The notes beneath the pieces are model-generated. The model saw nothing but the letters and a program-made list of their open reading frames with translations. It was not told where the DNA came from and ran no database searches. Made by a program: the position numbers and the translations under genes. From Rhodothermus bifroesti (GTDB lineage: Bacteria > Bacteroidota > Rhodothermia > Rhodothermales > Rhodothermaceae), in contig NZ_JAGKTL010000002.1 of NCBI RefSeq assembly GCF_017908595.1, forward strand, positions 558,001 to 622,000: a stretch of DNA of 64,000 bases. The letters run 5' to 3'. Below, in pieces: positions 2,451 to 5,722 of this stretch; within the stretch, counting starts at the first letter, position 1, and every line of letters begins with the position of its first letter.

Positions 2451-3719
2451 ATGAGGCGCTCGTTTGCCGAACGTGTTGTTGAGGTGCACATCGGCACTTG
2501 TCGGCTTTACGTATTGCCTGTCCCCATAGAACAAGTCGTAACGCTCCGCGGGTCGTTTCTGACCTGGCCCGACGTGGCGGCTGGAGACCTACTGCGCCAG
2601 CGTTTAACCGTAGGTATGCTGGATCAGGGTACGGTGCAGCGGGACCGGTTTGAGCTGGCGCGCTTACTGGAAGATCGCGGGGCGCACGTAAGCTTTGGGA
2701 GCAGAGGGCTACGGGTAGAATTTGCTGGACGCATGCTTCGTCGGCATGTGCCTGAGGTGCTGCCGCTGATTGCTGAGCAACTCCGCATGCCACGCTTTGA
2801 GGCTGAAGCATTTGAAAAAGTCCGTCTCCAGTTAGAGGCGCAGCTTAAGCAAGCCTTGGAGCAGACAGCTGTGCGCGCCCGACTGGCCCTGAGCCGACGG
2901 CTCTACAGTCCAGCGCATCCAAACTATGGCACAGACCCCGTGGAAGCGTTGGCCCGGCTTGCCGAATTGACGCTTGAGGACGTTAAAGCCTACCACGCCA
3001 CCCACTTTGGTGCCAACGAACTCATTCTGGTTTTGGTAGGCCACCTGCAGCCCGAAACCGCAGTCCCGCTCGTAGAGCAGTTTTTTGCCGATTGGACGCC
3101 CCATGCGGCAGCCCCTTGTTTTGCCCCCACAGCTACGCCACAGCCGCCCGGACGCGAGCTGATCTACGTGCCTGATCGCCAAAACCTCGATGTGTGTTTG
3201 GGGCATGCCCTGCCGCTGCGACGGCAGGATCCCGACTACTTGCCCTTGTACGTTGGCACCTACATCCTAGGCGGTAATTTTTCGGCCCGTCTTATGACTA
3301 CGGTGCGAGATGAGCGGGGGCTAACCTATTGGATTCATGCTGGACTAGAGGGCCTCAATACGCTGCACGACGGGCACTTTCAGATTGAAATTACGCTTAG
3401 CCGGGATCAGCTTGAGGCAGGGTTGGCCGCAACGCTCCAAGAAGTGGAACGCTTTGTGGCCGATGGCGTGACGGAAGCCGAACTAGCCGAGAAAAAAGAC
3501 ACGCTGACGGGCCTGTTTCAGACCGGACTTAGTACAACAAGTGGCTTGGCGAGCGCATTGCTGGTCAACATCGAACGTGGTTTTGGTCCGGCCTATCTAG
3601 ATCGCTATCCTGAGGAGATACGAGCGCTTACGCGCACGCAGGTTAACGATGCCGTTGCTCGCTATCTAAAGCCAGAAATGTTGCACACCGTCATTGCTGG
3701 CAGCATGCAGGCGTCGTGA
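2451..3719 (+). CDS. M16-like protein, non-catalytic partner
   Basis: About 423 residues with the M16 fold but no HxxEH. The equivalent region reads GDLLRQRLTVGMLDQG, so zinc-dependent catalysis is not expected. The C-terminal half keeps the conserved R..GLTYW region, which in active/inactive M16B pairs lies in the subunit that contributes the Arg/Tyr substrate-binding residues. I chose ATG at 2451. A TTG at 2445, immediately after the upstream stop, is an alternative start. It is probably translated together with the catalytic gene upstream and works as its partner. Confidence 0.9.
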   Translation: MRRSFAERVVEVHIGTCRLYVLPVPIEQVVTLRGSFLTWPDVAAGDLLRQRLTVGMLDQGTVQRDRFELARLLEDRGAHVSFGSRGLRVEFAGRMLRRHVPEVLPLIAEQLRMPRFEAEAFEKVRLQLEAQLKQALEQTAVRARLALSRRLYSPAHPNYGTDPVEALARLAELTLEDVKAYHATHFGANELILVLVGHLQPETAVPLVEQFFADWTPHAAAPCFAPTATPQPPGRELIYVPDRQNLDVCLGHALPLRRQDPDYLPLYVGTYILGGNFSARLMTTVRDERGLTYWIHAGLEGLNTLHDGHFQIEITLSRDQLEAGLAATLQEVERFVADGVTEAELAEKKDTLTGLFQTGLSTTSGLASALLVNIERGFGPAYLDRYPEEIRALTRTQVNDAVARYLKPEMLHTVIAGSMQAS

Positions 3720-3734
3720 CGTCCAATCCAAAAA

Positions 3735-3771
3735 CGCAGCAGGCCCGCCCCAGAGGAGCGGACCTGCTGCG
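3735..3771 (-). terminator. intrinsic terminator between convergent genes
   Basis: CGCAGCAGG (3735-3743) pairs with CCTGCTGCG (3763-3771), and the stem is extended inside by CCGC/GCGG with one mismatch. Read on the - strand the stem is followed by a run of five T, so it best serves the AP2-like gene on the right. It may also stop transcription arriving from the M16 genes. Confidence 0.7.
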
Positions 3772-3859
3772 TCCCCATCCACGAGAACACGGGCCTTGCG
3801 TGTTCGGGAAGAAGTATCGGCTGCAGGTCCTAGAGACTTAAGCAGGCGTACGCGAAAAA

Positions 3860-4393
3860 TCATTGTAGCGCCTGTTGGTACAATCGCTGCAAGGCAGGAA
3901 GCGCACGGCGTACCATTTCTTCAACGCTGAGCTTCGGAGGACGCTGAACTTCGTACAGCTTGCGACAGACCAGTTCTAAAGCCCCTTCTAGACCATGGGC
4001 TTCAATGCTGCGGCTGGTAGAGTGACGACGGCCTTCTGCATCGGTCCAGTAACCTTGCACGTAAGGACGCCGCTGCCCTTGGCGCGTCATTTTCATGCTA
4101 AATCCGACGCCTACAATACCTGAGCGATTGATTGCCGCTAATGCTTTCTGACGGGCTTCTGGGGTACGCAGGCGCAGGGTGGGGTCAATGGGAGGGGGCA
4201 GTTCCTCCAACAGGCGGTCGCGGTAAGCTACTGCTGCCTCAAAAGCTTTTTCTGGAGATCCGTATTTGCTGTCAGAAAAAAACTGCGAGTAGGATCGGTT
4301 TTGACGTTGTATGCGGACCTGCCAGCCATGTGTTTCGCGCACATCAATGCGAAAAACATTGCGCGCTTTTCTACCGCCTTTAGTGTTCGACAT
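3860..4393 (-). CDS. protein with two AP2-like DNA-binding modules
   Basis: A 177-residue basic protein. Residues 12-64 have the pattern of an AP2/ERF-type module: three short strands containing GWQVRIQRQNRSYSQFF, then a helix with EKAFEAAVAYRDRL. Residues 90-148 look like a second, more diverged copy (SGIVGVGFS, PYVQGYWTDAEGRRHS, then a helix). The C-terminus is helical. No nuclease domain such as HNH is present, although bacterial AP2 modules often sit in homing endonucleases. A role as a stand-alone transcription factor or nucleoid protein is inference. A good Shine-Dalgarno (AAGGAGG) lies about 7 bases before the ATG. It is transcribed divergently from the GH18 gene. Confidence 0.7.
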   Translation of the reverse strand: MSNTKGGRKARNVFRIDVRETHGWQVRIQRQNRSYSQFFSDSKYGSPEKAFEAAVAYRDRLLEELPPPIDPTLRLRTPEARQKALAAINRSGIVGVGFSMKMTRQGQRRPYVQGYWTDAEGRRHSTSRSIEAHGLEGALELVCRKLYEVQRPPKLSVEEMVRRALPALQRLYQQALQ

Positions 4394-4609
4394 GGGAGCG
4401 CCTCCTTATGCTAACCATCTGGACGTAGGGTAGAGTGGAACAAGGAGATCGTGGCGGGGACTGACAAATTTACAGACAATATCGCTGAGGTTCAATGCTG
4501 CTACAAAAAAGTCCATCTGTAAAATGGAATCGATCCCAAGTTTACATGCACAGTAAGGACTTGCTTCTACAAGATTATCTTTAAAAAAGGCTAAATAATT
4601 TTAGGGCAA

Positions 4610-5722
4610 ATGCGTTTTTATTGGATTTTAGGGCTAAGCCTTTATGGTCTCGTAAGCGCCTGTCACTTGAATGAGCCTGCCTACCGGGTGGTGGGCTATC
4701 TTTACGGTCCGCGTATGGATAGTATAGAAGTGTTTAATTTTAATGGTCTTACGCACTTAAACTATGCTTTTGCCAATGTGCTTCCCGATGGTCGGGTGGT
4801 TTTAGAGAGCGCGGTTGACAGTCAGCGGCTTCGTCGCGTGTTGGCTGCTCGAGGGGCTTCTAAGGTGTTGCTTTCGATAGGGGGGTGGTCCTGGTCGGAT
4901 TACTTTTCGGATGCGGCGTTGACGGAACAGGCGCGGCGTCGCTTTGCCGAAAGTGCCGCTGCGTTGCTGGTGGCGTTTGGTCTAGATGGGTTGGACGTGG
5001 ACTGGGAGTATCCGGGACAGGTGGGTGAGGGTAATGTTTATCGACCAGAAGACCGGGAAAACTTTACGCTTTTGTTGGCTGCTGTGCGGGCTGAGCTAGC
5101 GGCATTGGCTGAGGTGCATCGCAGGCCATATCTGCTGACGATTGCAGCCGGCGTGGATTCGACCTATTTGGCTCATGTCGAGATGGAGCAGGTGCATCCG
5201 CTACTGGACTTTATAAATTTGATGACCTACGACTTTCATGGAAGCTGGACGCCGCATACGGGTCATCATGCGAATCTTTATCCTTCTGCTTTAGATCCTG
5301 AGCAGTTTTCAGTGGATGCTGTCGTTCGGCGCTATCTTCGGGCTGGTGTTCCGGCCGAAAAGTTGGTCATTGGGGTGCCGTTTTACGGGAGAGGTTGGCA
5401 GGGGGTATGGCCGGAGCATCATGGGCGCTATCAGTCCTATGAAGCTGTAGTGGAAGCGCCTTTGTCGTTTGGGGTGTTGCAAGCCCGTTATATTGGCCGG
5501 GAGGGTTTTGTGCGGTATTGGGATGCGGAAGCGCGTGCGCCGTATTTATGGAATGCAAAGCTCCGGGTGTTTATTTCTTATGAGGATGCCCAGTCCTTGC
5601 AGGAGAAAGTGGCCTATGTGCGTGCGAGGCGTCTAGGTGGGGTGATGTTTTGGGAATACAGTGCCGATACTTGGGGCACATTGCGTCGGGTACTGGTTGC
5701 AACAGAACCGTTATTGCAATAA
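4610..5722 (+). CDS. GH18 family chitinase-like lipoprotein
   Basis: A 370-residue glycoside hydrolase family 18 protein. The N-terminus has a hydrophobic stretch and a lipobox ending at Cys18 (LVSAC), so export and lipid anchoring are expected. The family signatures are present: SIGGW at residues 89-93 and DGLDVDWE at 126-133, with Glu133 as the catalytic acid. The substrate is probably chitin or another N-acetylglucosamine polymer, but peptidoglycan-type substrates cannot be excluded. An AT-rich region of about 216 bases upstream separates it from the AP2-like gene. There is no clear Shine-Dalgarno. The last codons and the stop lie within a copy of the CCGTTATTGCAA repeat. Confidence 0.92.
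   Translation: MRFYWILGLSLYGLVSACHLNEPAYRVVGYLYGPRMDSIEVFNFNGLTHLNYAFANVLPDGRVVLESAVDSQRLRRVLAARGASKVLLSIGGWSWSDYFSDAALTEQARRRFAESAAALLVAFGLDGLDVDWEYPGQVGEGNVYRPEDRENFTLLLAAVRAELAALAEVHRRPYLLTIAAGVDSTYLAHVEMEQVHPLLDFINLMTYDFHGSWTPHTGHHANLYPSALDPEQFSVDAVVRRYLRAGVPAEKLVIGVPFYGRGWQGVWPEHHGRYQSYEAVVEAPLSFGVLQARYIGREGFVRYWDAEARAPYLWNAKLRVFISYEDAQSLQEKVAYVRARRLGGVMFWEYSADTWGTLRRVLVATEPLLQ
5708..5719 (+). repeat. polar 12-mer CCGTTATTGCAA, copy 1 (left of dif)
   Basis: An exact copy that covers the last codons of the GH18 gene and adjoins its stop. With the following bases it forms 15 of the 18 positions of the full palindrome CCGTTATTGCAATAACGG. Read 5'-3' on the + strand it points toward the dif-like site at 21 kb. 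Confidence 0.75.

Follow-up and report, generated by a model that had tools for sequence, protein, structure and literature searches.

A Chromosomal Tandem AP2 Protein of Rhodothermus, Probably a Regulator, with a Candidate Sigma-28-Dependent Small RNA Downstream

The AP2 Gene and Its Locus

The gene under study lies in a stretch of 64,000 nucleotides of the Rhodothermus bifroesti genome, hereafter the window, and codes for a small basic protein (177 residues, pI 10.5) that carries two modules of the AP2 type, a fold used by gene regulators of plants and malaria parasites. The limits that a preliminary description had assigned to this open reading frame, 3860-4393, are exact, and we add that the frame is on the minus strand, with its ATG at 4393. 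The ribosome-binding site claimed for it was found as well (AAGGAGG, 7 nt from the ATG), together with the gap of 216 bases (4394-4609) that separates the gene from a divergent GH18 gene (4610-5722), identified as such by Pfam. A terminator of its own had also been attributed to the gene: a hairpin followed by a T run is indeed present at 3730-3771, 88 bases after the AP2 stop, but it belongs to a separate conserved non-coding element having its own sigma-28-type promoter. Neither this hairpin terminator nor a sigma-70-type promoter for the AP2 gene was listed by a simple scan for promoters and terminators. The features of the locus are collected in table 1.

Table 1. Features of the AP2 locus, in coordinates of the window, with the evidence for each
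Feature	Position	Strand	Evidence and remarks
Candidate small RNA, near-invariant in the genus	3730..3809	-	Seven-genome alignment and fold; 5' end deduced from the promoter
Terminator-like long hairpin, then T5 at 3734-3730	3735..3771	-	Sequence and fold; would also end read-through transcripts of the AP2 gene
Hairpin 1, GAACACG-loop-CGTGTTC	3785..3805	-	Consensus structure and sequence
Sigma-28-type promoter, TTAAGT-N14-GCCGATA	3815..3841	-	Pattern search; kept in the genus
CDS of the 177-residue tandem AP2 protein	3860..4393	-	List of open reading frames and translation; homologues in 7/7 genomes of the genus
C-terminal helix, residues 157-176	3866..3925	-	AlphaFold2 model; missing from the shorter members of Verrucomicrobia
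AP2 module 2, residues 96-150	3944..4108	-	AlphaFold2 model; no Pfam match here, several relatives matching in module 2
AP2 module 1, residues 13-64	4202..4357	-	AlphaFold2 model; Pfam AP2 at residues 24-61, E 0.0011, under the cut-off
Shine-Dalgarno sequence, AAGGAGG	4401..4407	-	7 nt ahead of the ATG

At E<=0.001 the 2.88-Mb genome has a single copy of the gene, the next place scoring only 0.26. Its surroundings were followed in the rest of the genus, six genomes, by tblastn. The order polA, M16, M16, AP2, GH18, ClpC is complete in the window genome and in three others (G001, G002, and G004), and in G005 it is kept as far as the stretch extends. In G003 and G006 the GH18 gene is gone from the locus, and a gene of the asparaginase family (by Pfam) directly follows the AP2 gene, which is retained; the stretch of G003 shows no M16 genes, that of G006 ends before ClpC. 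The same asparaginase-family gene lies behind GH18 in G001, G002, G004, and G005, and was not found in the first 12 kb of the window. Hence GH18 adjoins the AP2 gene in five of the seven genomes, which weakens the earlier suggestion that its promoter is the target of the protein: because GH18 is not adjacent in G003 and G006, a dedicated GH18 regulator is unlikely. An autoregulatory operator was among the ideas set aside; the 5' region of the AP2 gene has 57 invariant columns out of 386 in the seven-genome alignment.

The protein evolves under purifying selection. Of 21 species pairs, 16 have a finite dS, and their dN/dS ranges from 0.035 to 0.133; in the remaining five, each including the window genome (five of its six pairs), synonymous sites are saturated. 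Since the gene is single-copy, present at one syntenic place in 7/7 genomes and under purifying selection, it is a normal host gene and not a mobile one, as had been presumed. Across genera the neighbourhoods of AP2 genes recur mainly within lineages, and we rejected the idea of a functional neighbour common to all genera, as these neighbourhoods differ mostly by lineage; the exception is a more distant locus, L048, where an M16-like gene lies some 5 kb from the AP2 gene. At three other loci of the order (L101, L103, and L104, in G014, G026, and G042), a gene that we take to be flotillin-like is found no more than a few kb from the AP2 gene.

Fold and Profile Evidence for Tandem AP2 Modules

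The two regions of three strands plus a helix that had been recognized in the sequence are both present in the structure predicted by AlphaFold2 from an alignment of 32 rows (mean pLDDT 88, pTM 0.56). Module 1 is formed by strands 13-17, 22-30, and 33-40 with the helix 47-64, and module 2 by strands 96-102, 108-117, and 123-129 with the helix 130-150. In profile searches the protein taken alone scores 19.7 bits with PF00847, below the cut-off of 33.3 bits. Nothing in Pfam matches its second half, and when the genome that encodes it was searched with PF00847 it was not among the matches. Pfam gives AP2 only, in accord with the reported lack of an HNH nuclease, and searching the PDB by sequence returned nothing relevant. 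A role in a defence system was considered and dropped, with no defence-system match in PADLOC, nothing in NCBIfam, and only matches of E 0.2 and 0.33 in PHROGs.

Among the relatives of the protein, Pfam AP2 was matched at E<=1 by 11 of 19 family members, the best value being 9.9e-10, and in a second scan by eight of ten queries, three of which exceed the 33.3-bit cut-off with two stretches each (39.0 bits for L043, 37.7 for L079, and 36.0 for L052) and five of which remain under it; L022, from the same genus, had no AP2 match in that scan. When the model was compared with the PDB by Foldseek, the top matches were the chains 9g6k, 9i05, and 9hqv of the Toxoplasma mitoribosome and the AP2 tandem repeat of Plasmodium SIP2, 6sy0, the latter with modest scores (Foldseek E 2.4e-3, VIA Z 6.1). 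The VIA Z values of the mitoribosome and SIP2 chains, 5.9-8.2, lie in the middling range, values below 8 possibly reflecting a mere common arrangement, and unrelated LOV proteins reach 5.2; superposed over both modules together, the structures give a high rmsd (15 A versus 6sy0). Domains binding double-stranded RNA and ribosome-associated factors also figure in the structure match lists, with lower scores. With relatives above the Pfam cut-off and a tandem AP2 structure among the best matches, the AP2 similarity proposed in the preliminary description holds, and the evidence together makes it most likely that the 177-residue protein is a true, divergent tandem AP2 protein. It shares with the tandem form of PF00847 in Plasmodium SIP2 (6sy0) the presence of two three-strand-plus-helix modules in one chain, whereas it is bacterial and small, and its module 2 falls under Pfam detection. 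Bacterial AP2 domains have been described before as many and diverse in the available text of one survey (PMC4501334).

Distribution and Architecture of the Family

Homologues of the protein occur in 30 of the 60 genomes searched, its own included: in all seven genomes of Rhodothermus, where the six others are 77-80% identical, and in 23 further genomes of the order, at 31-48% identity. In the phylum, 394 genomes were searched with a profile built from 19 members, and 42 of them had a match. The named relatives belong, among others, to Salinibacter, Salinivenus, Longimonas, Roseithermus, and Rubrivirga, to Verrucomicrobia such as Haloferula, and to one metagenome-assembled genome labelled Deltaproteobacteria. 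Alignment A1 comprises 19 of 20 extracted family proteins, one near-identical copy having been dropped. Alignment A2 comprises 31 of 40 named loci, the other nine being near-duplicate, truncated, or frame-broken; one of its rows is the AP2 part only of an HNH fusion and another begins inside its frame.

In terms of architecture, 60 of 61 distinct family proteins appear stand-alone as judged by length, 148-234 residues with start codons that we chose, in agreement with the stand-alone form first noted for the Rhodothermus protein. The 61 proteins derive from 68 open reading frames, a short fragment of L059 having been dropped and the frame-broken L059 and the contig-end-cut L087 being included. 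Because longer frames open upstream of some of the chosen starts, ten such stop-to-stop frames were scanned with Pfam, which found AP2 in three of them and other domains in none at E<=0.001. The single exception is a protein of 337 residues that joins the tandem AP2 pair to a terminal HNH_2 domain and is identical in two metagenome-assembled genomes (L055:4381-5391 and L056:4451-5461; Pfam on L055, E 5.8e-12).

Outside chromosomes, weak relatives were found on plasmids by tblastn, in 44 records at E<=10, the best among the matches listed having an E of about 2e-6. On viral contigs the search patterns fit 25 stretches, not one of which could be confirmed as a relative; phage records gave only matches of E 6-7, in four records. 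On these grounds a phage origin was rejected, yet the best viral structure match is a protein of similar size, with 183 residues and uncharacterised, from the Pseudomonas phage PaBG (E 1.7e-6), below which come several homing and HNH endonucleases. A literature search of limited reach, through titles and the openings of abstracts, returned no account of this tandem AP2 family or of a small RNA in Rhodothermus.

A Conserved Non-coding Block behind a Sigma-28-Type Promoter

About 200 bases past the AP2 stop were aligned in the seven genomes of the genus. They contain a non-coding block, situated between the convergent AP2 and M16 genes, in which 68 of 75 columns are invariant in 7/7 genomes when its limits are set, as here, after viewing the alignment; in the flanks the invariant columns are 20 of 57 upstream and 7 of 100 downstream, and the 57 of 386 in the AP2 5' region are likewise far fewer in proportion. 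The block is laid out as a hairpin, an open linker of 13 nt and a long terminator-like hairpin, the stem of the last being no more invariant than hairpin 1 and the linker. Its fold has a z-score of -7.05 against shuffles, to which the long 3' hairpin contributes most. In the minimum-energy fold of the window genome's own strand the outer bases of hairpin 1 are paired differently, and the T run of the terminator is merely 3-4 long in five of the six other species. It may be added that the block and its promoter together (3730-3841 of the window, minus strand) are kept better than the AP2 gene itself.

Just ahead of the block, all seven genomes have the sequence TTAAGT-N13/14-GCCGATA, which we take to fit the sigma-28 consensus. 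FliA is detected above its cut-off in every one of them. The slightly wider pattern TWAAGT-N13/14-GCCGATA has two matches in the window genome and none in a reversed control, the second exact match preceding a gene with Flagellin_N and Flagellin_C domains (Pfam); the six other genomes together have 19 matches versus two in the control. Of all 21 matches, seven belong to the candidate small RNA, six to the flagellin leader (a flagellin start being detected by script in five of these), five to a second RNA-like block described below, and three lie elsewhere. We regard the block as a strong candidate: a small RNA of Rhodothermus dependent on sigma-28, which would be transcribed from the 3' region of the AP2 gene and would have a flagellar role.

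Small RNAs behind a sigma-28 promoter, a trait common to the Rhodothermus candidate, are known from Escherichia coli (UhpU, MotR, and FliX, in the accessible part of PMC10578931) and Campylobacter (CjNC1/CjNC4, in that of PMC4626219). The layout is comparable to that described there for UhpU, which is situated within another gene's 3' UTR and driven by a promoter of its own (PMC10578931). In contrast to all of these, the candidate is predicted from its sequence, has no Rfam match and is found convincingly only in Rhodothermus. Specifically, Rfam returned nothing in 3600-4650 at E<=1 and nothing in the window at gathering scores. With blastn the element was matched at E<=1 in 50 of the 60 relatives searched, those matches outside the genus being short and with E 0.002 or worse. 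The RNA model, run under stricter filters when searching more than 40 genomes, matched 17 of 114 genomes of the order at E<=1, seven of them being the genus itself and the ten others having E 0.0019 or worse; the six of these ten that were inspected turned out to be unrelated terminators or unrelated sequence. Given these short or weak blastn matches and the unrelated sequence at the six inspected model matches, an occurrence of the small RNA outside the genus was set aside as unconvincing. Within it, the element occurs twice in G005, where the extra copy stands at the end of a contig and may have been duplicated in assembly.

Two possible modes of action were tried and abandoned. The GGA motifs in the linker could have made the RNA a sponge for CsrA, which we rejected because none of the seven genomes encodes CsrA, a protein that was detected in three of 14 control genomes. 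Pairing of the linker with the flagellin leader is not significant, equally good pairing arising in 887 of 1000 shuffles.

Function of the Tandem AP2 Protein and of Its Locus

What, then, does this locus do? The idea that the gene codes for a bacterial AP2-type regulator has held as far as the AP2 fold, the stand-alone form and the host-gene status are concerned, while for its role a DNA-binding regulator is what we infer as the likeliest. Overall, we judge it rather probable that the locus combines a chromosomal tandem AP2 regulator with a downstream sigma-28-dependent small RNA sharing its terminator. The open reading frame would give rise to a chromosomal nucleic-acid-binding protein made of two AP2 modules, a linker, and a short C-terminal helix. 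The three-stranded sheet of each module would probably be placed on DNA, so that the pair would read two adjacent half-sites, as do tandem AP2 proteins, with transcriptional regulation as its most likely action. Directly downstream, on the same strand, a second unit would produce the sigma-28-dependent small RNA, with a terminator common to the AP2 gene.

In most discussions bacterial AP2 domains figure as components of mobile endonucleases, enzymes from which the regulators of plants and parasites arose. A tenable, if not our preferred, explanation is that the Rhodothermus protein derives by domestication from the DNA-binding half of a mobile AP2-HNH endonuclease, and would have kept its binding while having no regulatory circuit to itself. 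Such enzymes of bacteria and phages resemble the family through L055 (and the identical L056), in which the same tandem pair is fused to HNH_2, and through the viral structure matches, headed by the PaBG protein and including homing and HNH endonucleases; the weak plasmid relatives point in the same direction. However, the Rhodothermus protein has no nuclease domain and sits at a stable host locus, in a family that is almost entirely stand-alone. The kept order of the locus, the low dN/dS and the mostly lineage-bound neighbourhoods lead us to prefer a chromosomal regulator to a remnant of a mobile element. A regulator acting on DNA has, in turn, to be set against an AP2 protein that would bind mRNA, small RNA, or the ribosome instead of being a transcription factor. 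Chains of the Toxoplasma mitoribosome have the highest scores among the structural matches, and the available part of a study of that mitoribosome names four AP2 proteins, mtAP2-1 to 4, as RNA binders and raises in its discussion an ancestral RNA-binding role of AP2 (PMC11652630). Given that these mitoribosomal proteins bind RNA, DNA binding is not implied by the fold. We assume that they are the reason for the structure match, the identity of the matched chains being taken on trust; they bind rRNA within the mitoribosome according to that text (PMC11652630), whereas the Rhodothermus protein is linked to them by its predicted fold. The double-stranded RNA-binding domains and ribosome-associated factors in the match lists would also suit this explanation, as would the structured RNA-like block following the AP2 gene in 7/7 genomes. 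Yet SIP2, which is likewise a clear match of the AP2 type, is in complex with DNA, and the family is present outside the genus, where no copy returned by the RNA model in the order was convincing. Hence we hold binding to RNA to be unlikely. A stand-alone tandem AP2 family with a fixed place across a bacterial genus offers a protein for testing directly the choice between DNA and RNA that the available text of the mitoribosome study raises (PMC11652630).

As for the block downstream, its long hairpin followed by T5 between two convergent genes is what one would see if no small RNA existed and the AP2 gene simply had a long intrinsic terminator here, either for itself or working in both directions and shared with the M16 gene. 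This we consider quite unlikely, since a terminator needs neither an invariant hairpin 1 and 13-nt linker, which are conserved here like the terminator stem, nor the promoter kept in 7/7 genomes. To accept the small RNA is not to tie it to the protein: the two need not be functionally linked because the protein is found outside the genus and the RNA, convincingly, is not.

A Second RNA-Like Block and a Wider Reading

A second conserved RNA-like block, of about 135-150 nt, was matched by blastn in seven of 30 genomes, six of them of the genus, the one match outside it covering 38 bases on the terminator side. In the window genome it lies at G000:C2:378306-378439 (L187), the others being L162, L165, L167, L169, and L170; blastn did not find it in G005, a genome 92% complete, and Rfam had no match for L165 or L170, nor for the locus L136. 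Its sigma-28-type promoter is exact in five genomes of the genus and drifted in the window genome. A GUGGAUG motif common to both candidate small RNAs was dismissed as not significant, being equalled in 1146 of 2000 shuffles.

One could go further and see in the AP2 gene and the sigma-28-dependent small RNA a single regulatory locus, the protein binding RNA, or DNA near flagellar genes, and the second block forming another post-transcriptional arm. We find this very doubtful. If it were true, a flagellar small RNA made from the AP2 gene's own 3' region would couple AP2 expression with the late flagellar programme; no post-transcriptional control of flagella is known to us in this phylum. Lastly, at L173 and L174 (in G001 and G004) the sequence TAAAGTTTT...GCCGATA stands 26 bases before an open reading frame whose start we read as signal-peptide-like, possibly a further gene of the sigma-28 type.
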